From: Stenomitos rutilans HA7619-LM2
GTDB taxonomy: Bacteria; Cyanobacteriota; Cyanobacteriia; Leptolyngbyales; Leptolyngbyaceae
NCBI GenBank assembly: GCA_019358945.1
Contig: JAHHIE010000068.1
Coordinates: 1-37,060 of the forward strand
Reading direction: 5' to 3'
Length of the DNA stretch: 37,060 nt
Each line of letters starts with the position of its first letter. Positions within the stretch are counted from its first letter, which is position 1. A model generated the notes under the pieces. It did not search any database. It worked only from the letters and a program-made list of their open reading frames with translations, and was not told where the DNA came from. Both the position numbers and the translations under genes were made by a program. Below, piece after piece: positions 2,367-36,417 of this stretch.

Positions 2367-3098
2367 CTACTCAACGCTTGGTTCCATTAAAGCAGCACTA
2401 AACCCCAACCCGCTTCTAGAATTCCCTTCCAGGTAGATGGTGCGCACATCTTCTGGTAAGGTTGCCTCCAGCAAGCGATAGCCTTCCTGCACCTGCGATC
2501 GTACCTCTGTGGGAGACATCACTTCACCCTCTGCCCGCAAGTAAGCCGAAATCCGCGTTTCGCTCCAGTTGAAGGTTTGCGCCATCAGCACAACGAGCCG
2601 TAGCGTTGGTGGCATTTGATCGAGCGCTCGTTCGATATAGCACCACAGGGGTGGCGGCGCGGCTTCGAGATTGTATTGAATCGCTTCTACAGGCGGCAAC
2701 TCAGCCCGATTAATGCAAATGGCTGTCACGTTAATCAACCAGCTTTGCAATGTCATGCCAGCCTCACTTTCGCTGCTGCCGCCTCGCAAATCGACTCCGC
2801 CTAGCTCATGGAAGATATGCCGCCAGGTGTTTCCAAATAAGTAGTCTGCCTGTACGGGCGATCGAGCCGAATGCCGAATCAACGTGTAAACCATCGGGCT
2901 ATAGCGACAGAAAATCGCCGTAAAGTACTGCCCAGAGTCTGGATACCGCTGAAACAGCGTCAGCAAATCTTGATCGCTATAGTGTGTCAGCCCCTTGACT
3001 ACGGGATGATTACACTCTGGAAATGACGGAATTGCAGGAAAGGTAGGAATGGACACAGCCAAGTTACCAGCTAGTGGTGGAAATGAATGACCTCCCAT
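2367..3098 (-). CDS. Sigma-70-like / sigma-factor-related protein, function unknown
   Basis: A 243-residue soluble protein. Residues 40-110 (YSDQDLLTLFQRYPDSGQYF and the following C-R-Y-S-P-M-V-Y-T-L-I stretch) resemble the region-2 helices of ECF-like sigma factors. The segment LDQMPPTLRLVVLMAQTFNW followed by a helix-turn-helix-like stretch recalls region 4. The match is recognisable in outline, but the -10 recognition residues are not clear, so it may not act as a true sigma factor. The ATG at 3098 has no good ribosome site; an in-frame GTG at 3056 (Val15, before S-I-P-T-F) is a plausible alternative start. It heads the minus-strand block with the TPR gene and ftsX. Confidence 0.6.
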   Translation of the reverse strand: MGGHSFPPLAGNLAVSIPTFPAIPSFPECNHPVVKGLTHYSDQDLLTLFQRYPDSGQYFTAIFCRYSPMVYTLIRHSARSPVQADYLFGNTWRHIFHELGGVDLRGGSSESEAGMTLQSWLINVTAICINRAELPPVEAIQYNLEAAPPPLWCYIERALDQMPPTLRLVVLMAQTFNWSETRISAYLRAEGEVMSPTEVRSQVQEGYRLLEATLPEDVRTIYLEGNSRSGLGFSAALMEPSVE

Positions 3099-3415
3099 AT
3101 ATAAGCCGTTTTTGGCTAATTGACACGATTTTTTTACAAATTGGGAGAAGGGAGAGCAGTGAGGGGTGAACGTTAAGAGCTTTGAGTTTTGAGTTGATTC
3201 AGCGGTCAGCGGTCAGCTATCAACCTCAGTTATCAGCTTTTTAGCCTTTAGCCTGCACTCTTCATCCCTCATCCTTCTGCCCTCTGCCTTTCGCCTTCGT
3301 CCCCACTTCCCACTACAGACGTTCTTGATACAATGGTTAGAGGTGCTTAAACTCATTGCCTGCAAATGCCGTTTAGCAAGCTTCTTCGATCGTTTGCCCT
3401 GTTTCAATCACCACC
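3099..3415. other. Divergent intergenic region with short-repeat clutter
   Basis: About 317 bases separate the sigma-like gene (minus) from the VOC gene (plus). Bases 3193-3235 hold tandem 'cagcggtcag' and 'tatcag' units. Bases 3236-3300 hold the pyrimidine-rich 'tttagcct' and 'catccct' units seen again at 8806-8890, 17737-17765 and, inverted, 22517-22550. I see no coding potential. Promoters for both neighbours must lie here, but no clear -35/-10 pair stands out. Confidence 0.6.
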
Positions 3416-13548: not shown

Positions 13549-13575
13549 GGAATCAGAAATCAAATTTTTTTTGGG

Positions 13576-13613
13576 CGTTTGTAGGGACGTTACATATAAC
13601 GTCCCTACAAACG
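13576..13613. terminator. Palindrome copy 1, likely bidirectional terminator
   Basis: Two 17-base perfect arms (13576-13592 and 13597-13613) flank a four-base loop, cata. The core gtagggacgtta is shared with copies at 18431 and 20679. It sits between the FAD oxidoreductase stop (13548) and the dcd stop (13614), which converge. A run of eight T (13565-13572) lies just left of it, in the right place for termination of leftward transcripts. Confidence 0.65.
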
Positions 13614-18401: not shown

Positions 18402-18430
18402 GGTTATATTCCAGACCTGTGATTTATCTT

Positions 18431-18460
18431 TGTAGGGACGTTACATGTAACGTCCCTACA
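18431..18460. terminator. Palindrome copy 2, likely bidirectional terminator
   Basis: A perfect 30-base palindrome with no spacer; the left half is tgtagggacgttaca. It lies between the stop of the Prx-like gene (18401) and the stop of the NTF2-like gene (18473), which converge. The same core occurs at 13576 and 20679 in the same kind of position. Confidence 0.65.
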
Positions 18461-18472
18461 GATCACGACTGA

Positions 18473-19512: not shown

Positions 19513-20676
19513 ATGGTTGAGACGATTGTGAACGATTCTCCTGATTCTACTCTGACAGCAAACGCCAACGCTGTAGTAGCAGAAACTTCTCCAAAGCGGT
19601 TACTGCTTGCGGCAAGTGGTACAGGTGGGCACGTTTTCCCCGCGATCGCGGTGGCTGAGCAGCTTTCCGAGGGCCAGGCAGATTATCGGATTGAGTGGTT
19701 GGGTGTTCCCGATCGACTGGAGACGCAGTTGGTCCCCGATCGCTATCCACTCCATACCGTTACCGCTGAGGGGTTTCAAAAACGGGGTTTAGACAGCCTG
19801 CGCGTTGCCTTCAAGCTCATCGCCTCGATCTGGCAGGTGCGACGGTTATTACAAGTCGGTCGCTTCCAGGGCGTGTTTACGACCGGAGGCTATATTGCAG
19901 CTCCGGCGGTGCTAGCGGCACGATCACTGGGCCTGCCAGTCATTTTGCATGAATCCAACGCGCTACCAGGAAAAGTGACGCGCTTTTTGGGGCCGTGGTG
20001 TAGCGCTGTCGCCCTTGGCTTTGAGGCCGCAGCAGCCTATCTTCCTCGCACAAAAACGGTCTGTACCGGCACGCCTGTGCGATCGCAGTTCCAGGCAACA
20101 GTGCCCGTTGCCTTACCTGACCTGGAGATCCCAGCAGAAGCCCCCCTCATCGTCGTAGTGGGCGGTAGTCAGGGCGCGGTAGGCGTCAATCGATTGGTGC
20201 GGCAGTGTGCACCTGCCTGGTTTGATATGGGCATTTGGATCGTGCATTTGACGGGGGAGAATGACCCTGATGCCAAAACGCTACAGCATCCTCAGTACAT
20301 TGTTTTACCGTTCTATGACCACATGGCGGGCTTGTTGCAACGGGCCGATCTGGCAATTAGCCGATCGGGCGCTGGTACACTAACAGAATTGGCGATGACC
20401 CATACACCGTCGATTCTGATTCCCTATCCCTTCGCAGCAGAAGATCATCAAACGTACAATGCCACCGTGTTTTCCCAGGCAGGAGCCGCAACGCTGTTTC
20501 AACAAGCTGACCTCACACCAGAGGTTTTGCAGGCTGAGGTTTTACGCCTGCTTGGGAGCAAAGGTCCGCACCGCCACCCCTCTGACGAGCTAAAACAGAT
20601 GGCGCAACAGGCGGCAAGTCTAGCTGTACCGCACAGTGCTGAGCAACTGGCGAAACTGGTTCGTCAATGGCTGTAG
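19513..20676 (+). CDS. murG: UDP-N-acetylglucosamine transferase MurG
   Basis: A 387-residue GT28 glycosyltransferase that adds GlcNAc to lipid I to form lipid II at the inner face of the plasma membrane. Seen: the N-domain glycine loop ASGTGGHVFPAIAVAE (35-50), GVFTTGGYIAAP and HESNALPGK, and the C-domain UDP-binding loops VVGGSQGAVGVN and ADLAISRSGAGTLTELA followed by PSILIPYPFAAEDHQ. The first ~28 residues extend beyond the usual start and are not conserved. The ATG at 19513 is the only ATG in that stretch. It is a single gene, converging with txlA; the stop is 3 bases from a palindrome. Confidence 0.96.
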   Translation: MVETIVNDSPDSTLTANANAVVAETSPKRLLLAASGTGGHVFPAIAVAEQLSEGQADYRIEWLGVPDRLETQLVPDRYPLHTVTAEGFQKRGLDSLRVAFKLIASIWQVRRLLQVGRFQGVFTTGGYIAAPAVLAARSLGLPVILHESNALPGKVTRFLGPWCSAVALGFEAAAAYLPRTKTVCTGTPVRSQFQATVPVALPDLEIPAEAPLIVVVGGSQGAVGVNRLVRQCAPAWFDMGIWIVHLTGENDPDAKTLQHPQYIVLPFYDHMAGLLQRADLAISRSGAGTLTELAMTHTPSILIPYPFAAEDHQTYNATVFSQAGAATLFQQADLTPEVLQAEVLRLLGSKGPHRHPSDELKQMAQQAASLAVPHSAEQLAKLVRQWL

Positions 20677-20678
20677 GT

Positions 20679-20702
20679 AGGGACGTTACATGTAACGTCC
20701 CT
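20679..20702. terminator. Palindrome copy 3, likely bidirectional terminator
   Basis: A perfect 24-base palindrome, left half agggacgttaca, begins 2 bases after the murG stop and lies 27 bases from the txlA stop. The pair is convergent, as for the copies at 13576 and 18431. The outermost bases have diverged from the other two copies. Confidence 0.65.
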
Positions 20703-20729
20703 CAAAACAAAATCGGCATCCGTTGATCG

Positions 20730-31294: not shown

Positions 31295-31541
31295 AATCAA
31301 GGCTCCTACAGGGCTTCGGATGCAACTGAAGTCTAGGCTTCAAGCTACGCTTTTAGTTTTGCTGATTGCCGAACGTTGGATTGCTATGTTTGTCCTGTTA
31401 AGCTGCAACTTAAGCGATCTCTGCCTAAAGGAATACTAGAGAAAATACGTTGTAAAATCTGATGCCGAGGAGCATTAGTACGGTCAAAGATTGCTTCAGG
31501 GTTAGAGCCAAGGATGAAGCAGGATAGGGTAGGCGATCGCG

Positions 31542-33293
31542 ATGCAAAAGCAACAGAACGAAGGGCAGCAATTACAAGCACGTGTGGTACGCCTAAGGCA
31601 GCAAAACACCGCTTTGCAAGCTGAAGTAGCGGCTTTGCGTCAACAAGAAACAATGCTGCAGGCCCAAGCCGCGCACAGCTATGTTGGCAAAGTGACCGCC
31701 CATCACACAGCGATGCAAGCTGAACGTCTGCTACGGCAACAGACTGAAGCGGCTCTGAGCGAAAGCGAATGTTGTCGCCGCGCCTTTGAACAAGCTGCGA
31801 TCGGCATGACCATTGCCGATTTAGAGGGTCACTGGCTGCACATCAACCAGCACTTTTGCAGCATGGTGGGCTATACAGAGGGCGAACTGCTCGCGCTCAC
31901 CTTTGCCAACATTACCCACCCCGACACGCTGGAGAGCGATCGTGCCTTGTTGCAGCGCTTAGGTAGCGGCGAACTGCCAACCTACCAGACCGAAAAGCGC
32001 TACATTTGCAAAGACGGCTCCTTGCTGTGGGCTTGCCTGACCGTTTCTCTCGTTTGTGATGAGGTTGGAAACCCGGCTTACCTGATTGCCATTGTGCAAG
32101 ACATTAGCCCACGTAAAGAAGCCGAATTGATTGCTCAAGAACAGCAACAGGCACTCCAGCAGACGCTTGCGTTTCTTGCCACTGAACCAGAACTCGACAA
32201 ATTTGTGGAACAAGTTCTGATTACGATCGCAGCGCAACTTCAGGCTCCGGTTGCCGATATCTGGTTGCAAAATAACGAGCAATCTACGATAGCGCTTCAC
32301 GTAACCCACCGGAACGTTCAGCTTGCGCCTGAACCGCTCACGCCCTTTAACCCGACTCCGATTCCGTTGGCCGCCCTTCAAGGTAATGTGGCGCGGGAAG
32401 CGATGACGAAGCACAAGCAACCGTTTGTCTACCCAGATTTGCCCAACCATCCGGATATGGAGATCTTTCGGGCTTGTTCAGCCGTGCGCGAGGGTGTGCA
32501 AACATTGCTGACGGTGCCGCTTGTGTTTGGCAATCATCATATGGGTTCGCTGGCGATCAGTCACATGGAAAGCCATGACTATTCCCCTGAAGCCGTGCGT
32601 CTGGTGACAGCCCTGACGCAACAGATCGTGTTAGCCACTCAACTAACTCGCTTAGCGGAAGAGGCAAAACAAGTGGCGATCGTCGAAGAACAAAATCGCT
32701 TAGCACGAGAGATTCACGATACGCTGGCGCAAACCTTTACCGGCATTACGCTGCAACTCAACAACGCGCAGTACTATGCGACTCAAGAGGCCGCGATCGC
32801 CTGGGACATCATTGAGCAAGTCAAAACTCTGGCGCGGTCTGGGCTAACCGAGTCTCGTCGGTTAGTCTGGTCGCTGCATCCCGATGCGGATGAGTACCGG
32901 GATTTAGCTGGTTCGCTCCAGCGATCGCTGACTCAACTCACCCTGCACACGCCTCTGCAAGCCAATCTAGCAATTGTAGGAATGCCTCAACCCGTGCCCC
33001 CCGACATTGGCATGAACCTGTTACGCATTGGGCAGGAAGCCATCATGAATACGCTGCGTCATGCTCAGGCGCAAACGCTACAGATTGAACTCAGCTTCAA
33101 GACCGATGCGATCGCGCTTTACATTCGGGACGACGGGATGGGCTTTGATCTGCCATCGATACACGATCGTGTCGGCTTTGGCTTACTGGGTATGCAACAA
33201 CGCTGTGATCGTCTGGGTGGGCGGTTCACCCTTTGCAGTCAACCGGGACAAGGCACTGCCATCCTGATTCAAATTCCATTCACTTCTCCATGA
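31542..33293 (+). CDS. PAS-GAF NarL-type sensor histidine kinase 1
   Basis: A 583-residue soluble kinase. It has an N-terminal Gln/Leu-rich coiled coil (about 1-75), a PAS/PAC domain (about 80-190, AIGMTIADLEGHWLHINQHF to DISPRKEAE), and a GAF domain (about 205-370). A HisKA_3 dimerisation region follows, with the phosphoacceptor His392 in LAREIHDTLAQTFTGI, then an HATPase domain with N box IGQEAIMNTLRHAQA, G1 IRDDGMGFD and G2 GFGLLGMQQRC. There is no membrane segment, so it senses a cytoplasmic cue. The next gene is its paralogue, 24 bases on, then a LuxR-type regulator. ATG at 31542. Confidence 0.92.
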   Translation: MQKQQNEGQQLQARVVRLRQQNTALQAEVAALRQQETMLQAQAAHSYVGKVTAHHTAMQAERLLRQQTEAALSESECCRRAFEQAAIGMTIADLEGHWLHINQHFCSMVGYTEGELLALTFANITHPDTLESDRALLQRLGSGELPTYQTEKRYICKDGSLLWACLTVSLVCDEVGNPAYLIAIVQDISPRKEAELIAQEQQQALQQTLAFLATEPELDKFVEQVLITIAAQLQAPVADIWLQNNEQSTIALHVTHRNVQLAPEPLTPFNPTPIPLAALQGNVAREAMTKHKQPFVYPDLPNHPDMEIFRACSAVREGVQTLLTVPLVFGNHHMGSLAISHMESHDYSPEAVRLVTALTQQIVLATQLTRLAEEAKQVAIVEEQNRLAREIHDTLAQTFTGITLQLNNAQYYATQEAAIAWDIIEQVKTLARSGLTESRRLVWSLHPDADEYRDLAGSLQRSLTQLTLHTPLQANLAIVGMPQPVPPDIGMNLLRIGQEAIMNTLRHAQAQTLQIELSFKTDAIALYIRDDGMGFDLPSIHDRVGFGLLGMQQRCDRLGGRFTLCSQPGQGTAILIQIPFTSP

Positions 33294-33317
33294 GCAAAAT
33301 AGGGGCAAGAGGGCAAA

Positions 33318-35051
33318 ATGCAAATGCAGCCAGAGGAGTTGCAGCAACTACAGGAACAGATAGTTCAACTAGAACAGGAGAACGCAGTGCTACAGGCTGA
33401 AGTGGCTGCTTTACAGCAACGAGCGTTGGCATTGCAAGCCACGGCCATGCAAGATGATACCGCAGAGTTGGCAGCACTCAACGATGAACTACAAACTGAA
33501 CTCTTGCTGCGGCAACAGACGGAAACCGCTTTGGGTGAAAGCGAATGTTGCCGCCGTGCCTTTGAGCAAGCTGCGATCGGCATGACGATGATGGATTTAG
33601 AGGGTCGCTGGCTGCACATGAACCAGTACTTCTGCGACATGGTGGGCTATACAGAAGCCGAACTGCTCACGCTCACCGTTGCTGACCTCACCGACACCTT
33701 GGCGGACGATCGTGCTCTGCTACAGCGCTTGAGCAATGGCGAACTGCCTGGTTACCAAACCGAGAGGTCCTACCGTCGCAAAGATGGCTCCCGGCTCTGG
33801 GTCAGCCTGACCACCTCACTCGTGCGCGATGCGGGTTGCAACCCAGCTTACCTGATGTCGATTGTGCAAGACATCAGCCCACGCAAAGAGACTGAATTAA
33901 TTGCTCAAGGGCAGCAGCGGGCACTCCAGCAGACCCTGGCGTTTCTTGCTACCGAACCTGAACTCGACAAATTCTTGGGGCAAGTTCTCGCCACGATCGT
34001 CGAGCAGCTTCAGGCTGTAGTTGCGGATATCTGGTTAGACAATGCCGAACGCACGACGACAACGCTGCACTCAAGCTACTGGAATGTTCAGCTTGCACCC
34101 GAACCGCTAGTTCCGTTTAACCCGCCTCCCATTCCGTTGTCTGTCTTGACTAGCATGGCACAGAAGCTAAAGGAGTATCAACAACCGTTTGTCTACTTGG
34201 ATTGGCCAAACCATCCAGACGCAGCCATCTTTCGGGATCTGTCAGTCATGCGCGATGGAGTACAAACTCTGCTATTAGCTCCACTCCGGTTTGGTCACGA
34301 CTTTCTGGGTGCGTTGGTAATCTGTCACCTGCAACGTCATACTTACTCTCCTGAAGCCTTGCGTCTGGTGACGGCCCTGTCGCAGCAGGTCGTATTAGCT
34401 CTGCAACTGACTCGACTGGCGGAAGAGGCGAAACAAGTGGCGATCGTCGAAGAGCAAAATCGCTTGGCGCGAGAGATTCACGATACGCTGGCGCAAACCT
34501 TTACCGGCATTACGCTGCAACTCAACAACGCACAGTACTATGCGACTCAAGAGGCCGCGATCGCCTGGGACATCATTGAGCAAGTCAAAACTCTGGCGCG
34601 GTCTGGGCTGGCTGAATCCCGTCGGTTAGTTTGGTCGCTGCACCCTGACGCAGAGGAGTACCGAGATTTAGTGGGGGTGTTGCAGCGATCGTTCGCTCAA
34701 CTGACGCTACACACCGCTTTGCAAACCGATTTTGTGGTCACAGGCACCCCTCAGCTTGTGCCGCCTGACATGGGTATGAATTTGTTACGCATTGGACAAG
34801 AAGCCATCACAAATACATTGCGTTATGCGCAGGCGCAAACTCTACGCATGGAAATAGGCTTTAGGGTAGATGCCATCTCACTTCATATTAAGGATGATGG
34901 TGTCGGATTCGACCCGCAGTTAGCCCACGATCACGGAGGGTTTGGTTTGCTGGGAATGCAGCAGCGCTGCGATCGACTCGGTGGGCAATTTACCCTCCAT
35001 AGTCAGTCTGGACGGGGAACTTCTATCCTGATTCAAATTCCACTCACTTAA
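33318..35051 (+). CDS. PAS-GAF NarL-type sensor histidine kinase 2 (tandem paralogue)
   Basis: A 577-residue kinase with the same layout as its upstream neighbour: coiled coil, PAS (about 80-188), GAF (about 200-366), HisKA_3 with His388 in AREIHDTLAQTF, and HATPase with IGQEAITNTLRYAQA, IKDDGVGFD and GFGLLGMQQRC. The PAS and GAF parts differ clearly from kinase 1, so the two may sense different cues. The phosphotransfer helices are nearly identical even at the DNA level. The ATG at 33318 is preceded by a 24-base gap from the first kinase; the response regulator follows after 9 bases. All three are surely one operon. Confidence 0.92.
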   Translation: MQMQPEELQQLQEQIVQLEQENAVLQAEVAALQQRALALQATAMQDDTAELAALNDELQTELLLRQQTETALGESECCRRAFEQAAIGMTMMDLEGRWLHMNQYFCDMVGYTEAELLTLTVADLTDTLADDRALLQRLSNGELPGYQTERSYRRKDGSRLWVSLTTSLVRDAGCNPAYLMSIVQDISPRKETELIAQGQQRALQQTLAFLATEPELDKFLGQVLATIVEQLQAVVADIWLDNAERTTTTLHSSYWNVQLAPEPLVPFNPPPIPLSVLTSMAQKLKEYQQPFVYLDWPNHPDAAIFRDLSVMRDGVQTLLLAPLRFGHDFLGALVICHLQRHTYSPEALRLVTALSQQVVLALQLTRLAEEAKQVAIVEEQNRLAREIHDTLAQTFTGITLQLNNAQYYATQEAAIAWDIIEQVKTLARSGLAESRRLVWSLHPDAEEYRDLVGVLQRSFAQLTLHTALQTDFVVTGTPQLVPPDMGMNLLRIGQEAITNTLRYAQAQTLRMEIGFRVDAISLHIKDDGVGFDPQLAHDHGGFGLLGMQQRCDRLGGQFTLHSQSGRGTSILIQIPLT

Positions 35052-35060
35052 TCCACTGCG

Positions 35061-35690
35061 ATGACGTTAGATTCCAATATCCGCGTTCTAGTTGTTGATG
35101 ACCATCCGGTGGTGCGAACGGGCTTAACCACCATGCTGCACTCTGAACCCGGTCTGGAACCAATTGGCGAAGCGAAAACAGGTGTCGAAGCGATCGCGCA
35201 ATTCCAGGCGCTGCATCCTGATGTGACGCTGATGGACTTACGGATGCCAGAACTGAGTGGCGTAGAAGCCATCACCACCATTCTCAAAGACGACCCCACT
35301 GCTCGCATTATCGTTCTCACCACCTACGACGGTGACGAAGACATCTATCGCGGACTGCAAACGGGAGCCAAAGGCTACCTCCTCAAAGATGCCGATCGCA
35401 GTGAGCTATTAGAGGCAATTCGAGTCGTACACGCTGGACAGAAGTACATTCCGACACTTGTGGGTGCAAAATTGGTTGAGCGCATGAGCGGTCCGCAACT
35501 CAGCGATCGCGAAACTGATGTACTGAAGCTGTTAGCCCAAGGCAAAAACACTCAAGCGATTAGTTTATTGCTCAGCATCACAGAAGGAACCGTCAAGTTT
35601 CACATCACGAATATTTTGCAAAAACTGGGCGTGAGCGATCGCACTCAAGCCGTCGTAACTGCCTTCCAACGTGGCATTGCAAATCTATAA
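35061..35690 (+). CDS. NarL/LuxR-type response regulator
   Basis: A 209-residue regulator. The receiver domain (about 7-125) has the acidic pair in VLVVDDHPVVR, phosphoacceptor Asp59 in DVTLMDLRMPE, the switch Thr in IIVLTTYDGDE and Lys109 in GYLLKDADRSE. The C-terminal LuxR helix-turn-helix (about 145-205) reads LSDRETDVLKLLAQGKNTQ, then ITEGTVKFHITNILQKLGV. It is the only regulator in the locus and so is the expected target of both upstream kinases. The target genes are unknown. The ATG at 35061 lies 9 bases after kinase 2. Confidence 0.95.
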   Translation: MTLDSNIRVLVVDDHPVVRTGLTTMLHSEPGLEPIGEAKTGVEAIAQFQALHPDVTLMDLRMPELSGVEAITTILKDDPTARIIVLTTYDGDEDIYRGLQTGAKGYLLKDADRSELLEAIRVVHAGQKYIPTLVGAKLVERMSGPQLSDRETDVLKLLAQGKNTQAISLLLSITEGTVKFHITNILQKLGVSDRTQAVVTAFQRGIANL

Positions 35691-35830
35691 CCATTCTCGA
35701 AGGGCTCAACCAGACTTCACAGAAACTAAAGTCCACTGCTTGGCTTGCTTTAAGTCTTCAGTTTAAGATTTAATCGTAAAATACGACTCTTTGTAAAGAG
35801 TGCGATAGCTGTGCAAATGGGTACCAGTCC
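35691..35830. other. Spacer between the two-component operon and the uma2 remnant
   Basis: The convergent spacer contains a short hairpin, actcttt-gt-aaagagt at about 35785-35800, without a following T run on the plus strand. I see no gene. It may weakly contribute to termination of the response regulator message. Confidence 0.4.
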
Positions 35831-36417
35831 CTATCGAAGCTGAGTAACGTTTTCATAGAGGGTTTCGATCGCGCAAGCATAGCCAATGCTGGCGAATGCG
35901 ATCGTGTCTCCGGCTCGATAAACCTGGGGCATCCACAAATTATCGGCTTGACGCTGAAACTGCTCGACCAGAATTTGCTTTTGGTAGATCAGAACGTATT
36001 CAGTAAATGCTGAGATTGACTTGTAATCAGCGAACTTATCGCCGCGATCAAAGGCTTCTGTGGCGTCGGAGAGGACTTCAATAATGAGTTTGGGATACAG
36101 AATGAAGTCTTCGTCGGAACGCCGATTCTCTTCGAGAGGTTTCGCCAACGCATCGTCGCAGGTGACTGCCAAATCGGGATAGTAAAAGAGGTTGATGGCG
36201 GGCGCACTTTCATATCGGAAGTGTAGGGAAGACAGCCTGTGCCGCGTAGATGGTTGACGAGGAGGGCGGAGAGGTTGCCTGTAATGATGACATGGGCTTT
36301 GCTGGCTCCTGCTATCGCCACCAGTTCTCCCTGGAGATATTCGTGTTTGATGGGAATGGCTTCGGTTGCAGCATCTCGCATATGGCGTAATTGAGTTAGA
36401 TCATCAATCTTGGACAT
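35831..36417 (-). pseudogene. Frameshifted Uma2 (DUF820) gene with a HEPN-like N-terminus
   Basis: Two overlapping frames join one Uma2-type nuclease-fold protein. The first, from ATG 36417, reads MSKIDDLTQLRHMRDAATEA, then IPIKHEYLQGELVAIAGASK and on to DMKV (cat at 36211-36213). The second frame picks up at about 36199 with AINLFYYPDLAVTCDDALA, then LYPKLIIEVLSDATEAFDRG, and ends at 35831. In the family, K-H-E-Y-x-x-G-E, the F-Y-Y-P-D-L motif and the I-E-V-L-S-D motif belong to one protein, so a frameshift lies between 36213 and 36197. The first ~21 residues do not look like Uma2 but like the start of a HEPN (DUF86) protein. It overlaps the MNT gene by 14 bases. Confidence 0.8.

Follow-up and report, generated by a model that had tools for sequence, protein, structure and literature searches.

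The locus examined here holds two tandem sensor kinase genes, A and B, that are almost identical in DNA over one short stretch, while their flanking sequences are much less alike. This raises the question of whether the stretch was copied between the two genes and, if so, whether the exchange served to keep two different sensors on one regulator. The window is the whole stretch of DNA analysed (37,060 nucleotides). It corresponds to an entire contig of a draft genome of 7.28 Mb in 119 contigs. The genes concerned are the following.

31542 to 33293, forward strand: kinase A, an open reading frame of 583 amino acids, with PAS, GAF, HisKA_3 and HATPase_c domains after a putative N-terminal coil.
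33318 to 35051, forward strand: kinase B, 577 amino acids, a tandem paralog of A with the same domain order.
35061 to 35690, forward strand: response regulator of NarL/LuxR type, with receiver and GerE domains (Pfam).

Both kinases are of the HisKA_3 type, with HisKA_3 and HATPase_c matches over the curated cut-offs. Pfam families over the cut-off were PAS_3, PAS_9, GAF_2, GAF, HisKA_3 (residues 383-449) and HATPase_c in kinase A, and PAS_9, GAF, HisKA_3 (residues 379-445) and HATPase_c in kinase B. The N-terminal coil of kinase A is a reading from its sequence. The two proteins share 71% identity, and the phosphoacceptor histidine is present in both (His392 in A and its aligned counterpart in B). 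The response regulator at 35061-35690 is the only one recognised beside the kinases among the Pfam-scanned genes. Since the spacings are only 24 bases between kinases A and B and 9 bases between kinase B and the regulator, the gene order suggests that the three genes form one operon. The two kinase genes contain GCGATCGC sites, which we take to be HIP1. Elsewhere in the window, a 41-base interspersed repeat occurs in three copies (13572-13612, 18423-18463 and 20668-20708), the second and third being 80% and 83% like the first. It has a palindromic core around GTAGGGACGTTACATGTAACGTCCCTAC and is possibly a small non-autonomous mobile element.

A preliminary description of this DNA had reported that 32655-32845 and 34419-34609 differ at only five of 191 bases, all silently, and that the flanks are less alike. 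Both the coordinates and the count are correct, with mismatches at 32666, 32690, 32702, 32705 and 32768 (A coordinates). The contrast with the flanks was also confirmed. Over the whole A-B alignment, nucleotide identity is 74.6% (1731 aligned bases). Outside the interval, pS is 0.588, dS about 1.15 and pN 0.186, whereas inside it pS is 0.13, a value from 64 codons that take in an extra silent change at 32846, just beyond the interval. Among degenerate codons for the same residue, 6/63 are silently different inside against 132/337 outside, one of the six being again the change at 32846, in the codon cut by the end of the interval. In a permutation scan, spans with 0, 1, 2, 3, 4, 5 and 6 silent changes were reached 381, 0, 6, 6, 1, 2 and 6 times in 100000, respectively. 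Silent divergence also falls, with pS down to 0.15, in the PAS part at about 31779-31905 and its counterpart in B. As a second tract, this stretch was within chance expectation when the 32655-32845 tract was removed (permutation fractions 0.097-0.95 for nine span definitions).

The stretch of low silent divergence is shorter than first described. A change-point fit placed it at 32706-32843, where 1 of 45 codons differs, with a log-likelihood gain of 16.2; none of 2000 permutations reached this fit, the best attaining 12.5. Fifteen segments lay within 2 log units, with starts at 32706-32718 and ends at 32831-32843, and each edge is thereby placed to within about five codons. The parts distinguished around the two helices of the DHp domain are listed below.

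32655 to 32705, forward strand: 5' part of the interval first described; protein identical in A and B, silent changes in 4/17 codons.
32706 to 32845, forward strand: core of the very probable conversion tract in kinase A; 140 bases, residues 389-435, including His392, with one mismatch to B.
34470 to 34609, forward strand: the corresponding core in kinase B, in register +1764.
32846 to 32893, forward strand: downstream flank, the rest of the second DHp helix; protein nearly identical, silent changes in 7/13 codons.

Between the mismatches at 32705 and 32846 that bound it, the core is made up of two exact runs, 62 and 77 bases long; elsewhere in the A-B pair no exact run exceeds 23. Its dS is 0.03, as 33.7 silent sites carry a single change. 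GC3 is 0.59 (A) and 0.66 (B) in the tract and 0.56 in the rest of both genes, a comparison that gives no clue to which gene was the donor. The identity of the proteins extends beyond the core: 69 consecutive residues, starting at 32640, are the same in A and B, and within residues 367-460 the two differ only at 436, 450, 456 and 458. From the start of this run to 32705, 7/22 codons are silently different. In silent divergence, the first 51 bases of the interval (32655-32705) cannot be told from what lies outside it (Fisher p 0.31). Because they diverge like the rest of the genes, they were probably not converted in this event. The noted tract is therefore confirmed for 32706-32845, and its first 51 bases probably belong with the flanks.

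We compared A and B with 21 other HisKA_3 kinases, eight from the same genome, which has ten HisKA_3 matches, and 13 from related genomes. L005, whose match ends at residue 392, and L055 were left out of this control, and L018 and L020 correspond to kinases also labelled L023 and L029. Between A and the 21 kinases, silently different same-residue codons amounted to 381/621 in the 32655-32845 tract and 911/1467 in the flank; the corresponding figures for B were 385/621 and 938/1443. Among the 252 of 253 kinase pairs with at least 15 comparable codons, A-B was the lowest (6/63, 0.095), followed by a pair at 8/23 (0.348). A search of the whole genome with the DNA of the tract returned only these two copies and a 78% match over 63 bases in a kinase on contig 8. 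Since the 21 other kinases diverge normally in this stretch, a family-wide constraint on its DNA is excluded, and unlinked kinases of the family do not share the tract. Internal DNA repeats were seen in two kinase loci of the family, namely the contig 8 locus of this genome (257-320 and 845-908, 89% over 64 bases) and a locus on contig 371 of genome G004 (2366-2501 and 2981-3116, 81% over 137). Kinases of this family may often carry short repeats or undergo short exchanges.

No other explanation accounts for these data nearly as well as a short and recent ectopic gene conversion between the tandem paralogs, in which we have high confidence. Silent divergence in the tract lies far below that of the flanks, it changes sharply at both ends and is restored on either side, and the low value is specific to this pair, as the gene conversion reading of the preliminary description would lead one to expect. 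A tandem duplication of one kinase gene would have placed A and B ahead of one NarL-type regulator, and the two copies would then have diverged until their silent sites were near saturation. Recent copying of about 140 bases between them would have erased the silent differences over residues 389-435, presumably through RecA-dependent strand invasion in the block of greatest similarity, and one silent mutation would have arisen in the tract since. The exchange would have been harmless to protein function, because the block is under purifying selection in both copies. By the ratio of dS values, we infer that the exchange has roughly 3% of the age of the duplication, a rough figure, since a single change and nearly saturated flanks underlie it. 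Against this explanation, conversion should seldom occur between sequences that are about 25% diverged. Strand exchange is easiest where two sequences are most alike. The location of the tract may simply reflect this easier recombination.

Searches of other genomes (6 of the genus, 41 of the order and 387 sampled from the class) yielded no orthologous pair. At E 1e-60, matches occurred in 10 of 57 other relatives, none above 47% identity. At E 1e-75, they occurred in 3 of 41 other genomes of the order (best 45%), and at E 1e-85 in 2 of 387 other genomes sampled from the class (best 45%), with at most three candidates scored per genome in the class search. The sets of relatives, order and class overlap, with one genome per species. 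Of 72,556 plasmid records, 1075 matched, one of which covers at least 80% of the query, at 28.6% identity; the best 10 of the 1075 carry cyanobacterial names. These names and the HIP1 sites in the kinase genes suggest that the host is probably a cyanobacterium. Two scans of genome contigs gave no locus and three loci, respectively; none of the three is an orthologous pair (28%, 34%, and 53% over residues 1-76 only). The last of these, on a Rhizonema MAG contig (L054, 2283-2501), is a 72-codon ORF that resembles only the N-terminal coil of the kinases before it meets a stop, and it may be what is left of a related kinase. Tandem pairs were also looked for by eye among the HisKA_3 matches listed across 41 genomes of the order, including this one. 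Among the matches listed, same-strand pairs less than 5 kb apart were this one and one in genome G064. The G064 pair has no such tract: in 330 codons from each gene, 85/148 same-residue codons are silently different, any 45 consecutive codons contain at least 20 silent differences, the best identity over 140 columns is 0.73, and the longest exact run is 20. This contrast between tandem pairs is one comparison, that with G064.

Was the conversion favoured by selection? Such a proposal adds to gene conversion the idea that the exchange lets two sensors diverge in their inputs while the docking face of both stays matched to one regulator, and perhaps permits mixed dimers. The position of the tract gives it some appeal, as do the two kinases with one regulator after them. 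The core runs from REIHDTLAQ to LARSGL (residues 389-435), so that the helix of His392 and most of the second DHp helix lie inside it, in agreement with the coverage first described. The alignment of the kinases with DesK is free of gaps between residue 373 and the end of the second DHp helix. His392 aligns with the histidine of DesK HDTLGQ, which would be His188, since this numbering fits Gln193, Leu200, Asp203, Arg206 and Arg235 as named in PMC5231405. Gln397 and Leu404 align with DesK Gln193 and Leu200. The same paper describes DesK 190-235 as the DesR-binding DHp region (PMC5231405), and the core covers 42/46 of the residues aligned to it. Equal overlap was obtained in 10/537 uniform placements of a 47-residue block. 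However, among windows with at least 44/47 identical residues, 10/59 placements did as well. The position therefore argues only weakly for a purpose, as strand exchange is also easiest in the block of greatest similarity. Moreover, Arg439, which aligns with the salt-bridge residue Arg235 of DesK, lies outside the tract and yet is the same in A and B, protein identity continues in unconverted DNA on both sides, and the G064 pair, the only other same-strand tandem pair among the matches listed, lacks a tract. Purifying selection is thus enough to keep the DHp domain similar, because the protein is the same or nearly the same where the DNA has diverged normally (7/22 and 7/13 codons on the two sides). 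Judging from gene order, both kinases likely serve the regulator at 35061. The similarity of the domain is consistent with this, and conversion is not needed for it. Maintenance by selection would be expected to leave recurrent conversion as its signature, and among the genomes searched the pair occurs in this one. The DHp helices would not be expected to hinder A-B mixed dimers, while the N-terminal part could; among the regions measured, divergence is highest in the first 64 codons (pN 0.32). On balance, we consider it unlikely that selection drove the exchange.

Explanations without any exchange fare much worse than gene conversion. An overlapping gene, an RNA structure or an internal promoter could constrain the DNA or RNA and freeze silent sites, and those of the core are indeed almost frozen. 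This is very improbable, as the stretch is silently diverged in comparison with all 21 other kinases. RNA folding of the core was no better than that of shuffled sequences (z = +1.07), Rfam gave no match at the gathering score in 31400-35900, and no sigma-70-like promoter match was found in the tract. Besides the kinase, the only ORFs of at least 30 amino acids that overlap 32655-32845 are antisense ORFs of 49 and 39 amino acids. No nucleic-acid element of the kinds considered (RNA fold, Rfam family, overlapping ORF, promoter or terminator pattern) accounts for the tract. We attach equally little weight to an assembly or polishing artefact in which both copies were built from the reads of one. 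The draft state of the genome (119 contigs, the window being a whole contig) and the two exact runs could prompt this suspicion. However, the copies retain one mismatch inside the core and differ densely at either edge, by which reads would separate them, and usual short reads are longer than either of the exact runs (62 and 77 bases). Least probable of all is strong purifying selection on the protein alone, which would explain the 69 identical residues in a row but does not remove silent differences, and five other identical protein runs of 12-18 residues do carry them (4/16, 6/18, 7/12, 5/11 and 9/15 codons).

Gene conversion between bacterial paralogs is established for tufA and tufB of Salmonella (PMC5485169), and psbA and psbD of cyanobacteria are further cases (PMC6053082). 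As in these genes, silent sites reveal a continuous block that has become alike in two paralogs of the same genome. However, only 12 positions in 1185 bases separate tufA from tufB (PMC5485169), whereas kinases A and B are otherwise about 75% alike and share one short tract. The psbA and psbD genes are recurrently homogenised across species (PMC6053082), whereas the kinase tract is known from one genome. Kinases of the DesK/VraS type, which work with NarL-type regulators, have the same HisKA_3 and HATPase_c transmitter as A and B. DesK is a transmembrane sensor, whereas the inputs of A and B are PAS and GAF domains, and here a single regulator follows two tandem kinases. Paralogous two-component systems that became insulated after duplication (PMC9208753, PMC2991266) likewise involve duplicated signalling genes and kinase residues that set the partner. 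In the present case, however, the kinase alone is seen in duplicate, beside one regulator, and the docking block was kept or made identical, which is the opposite of insulation. Among the titles listed by searches of one open-access library, none is on conversion between histidine-kinase paralogs, and a myxobacterial survey mentions conversion merely as a possibility (PMC4603909).

The event is real, ordinary in kind and neatly bounded, and the process behind it is well known. It provides a clean case of segmental gene conversion in old paralogs. It also calls for caution, as short DNA identity in diverged sensor kinases can stem from late exchange, which can mislead trees or predictions of partner specificity that are based on the DHp domain. 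If the exchange was selected, it would show how several sensors stay on one regulator. More generally, selection might favour short conversions of the docking block in tandem kinases that feed one regulator, so that sensory halves diverge while the output face is periodically reset. We regard this wider idea as doubtful, and a little more so than selection on the present exchange. If true, it would amount to concerted evolution by module, opposing the drift to insulation seen after kinase duplication.
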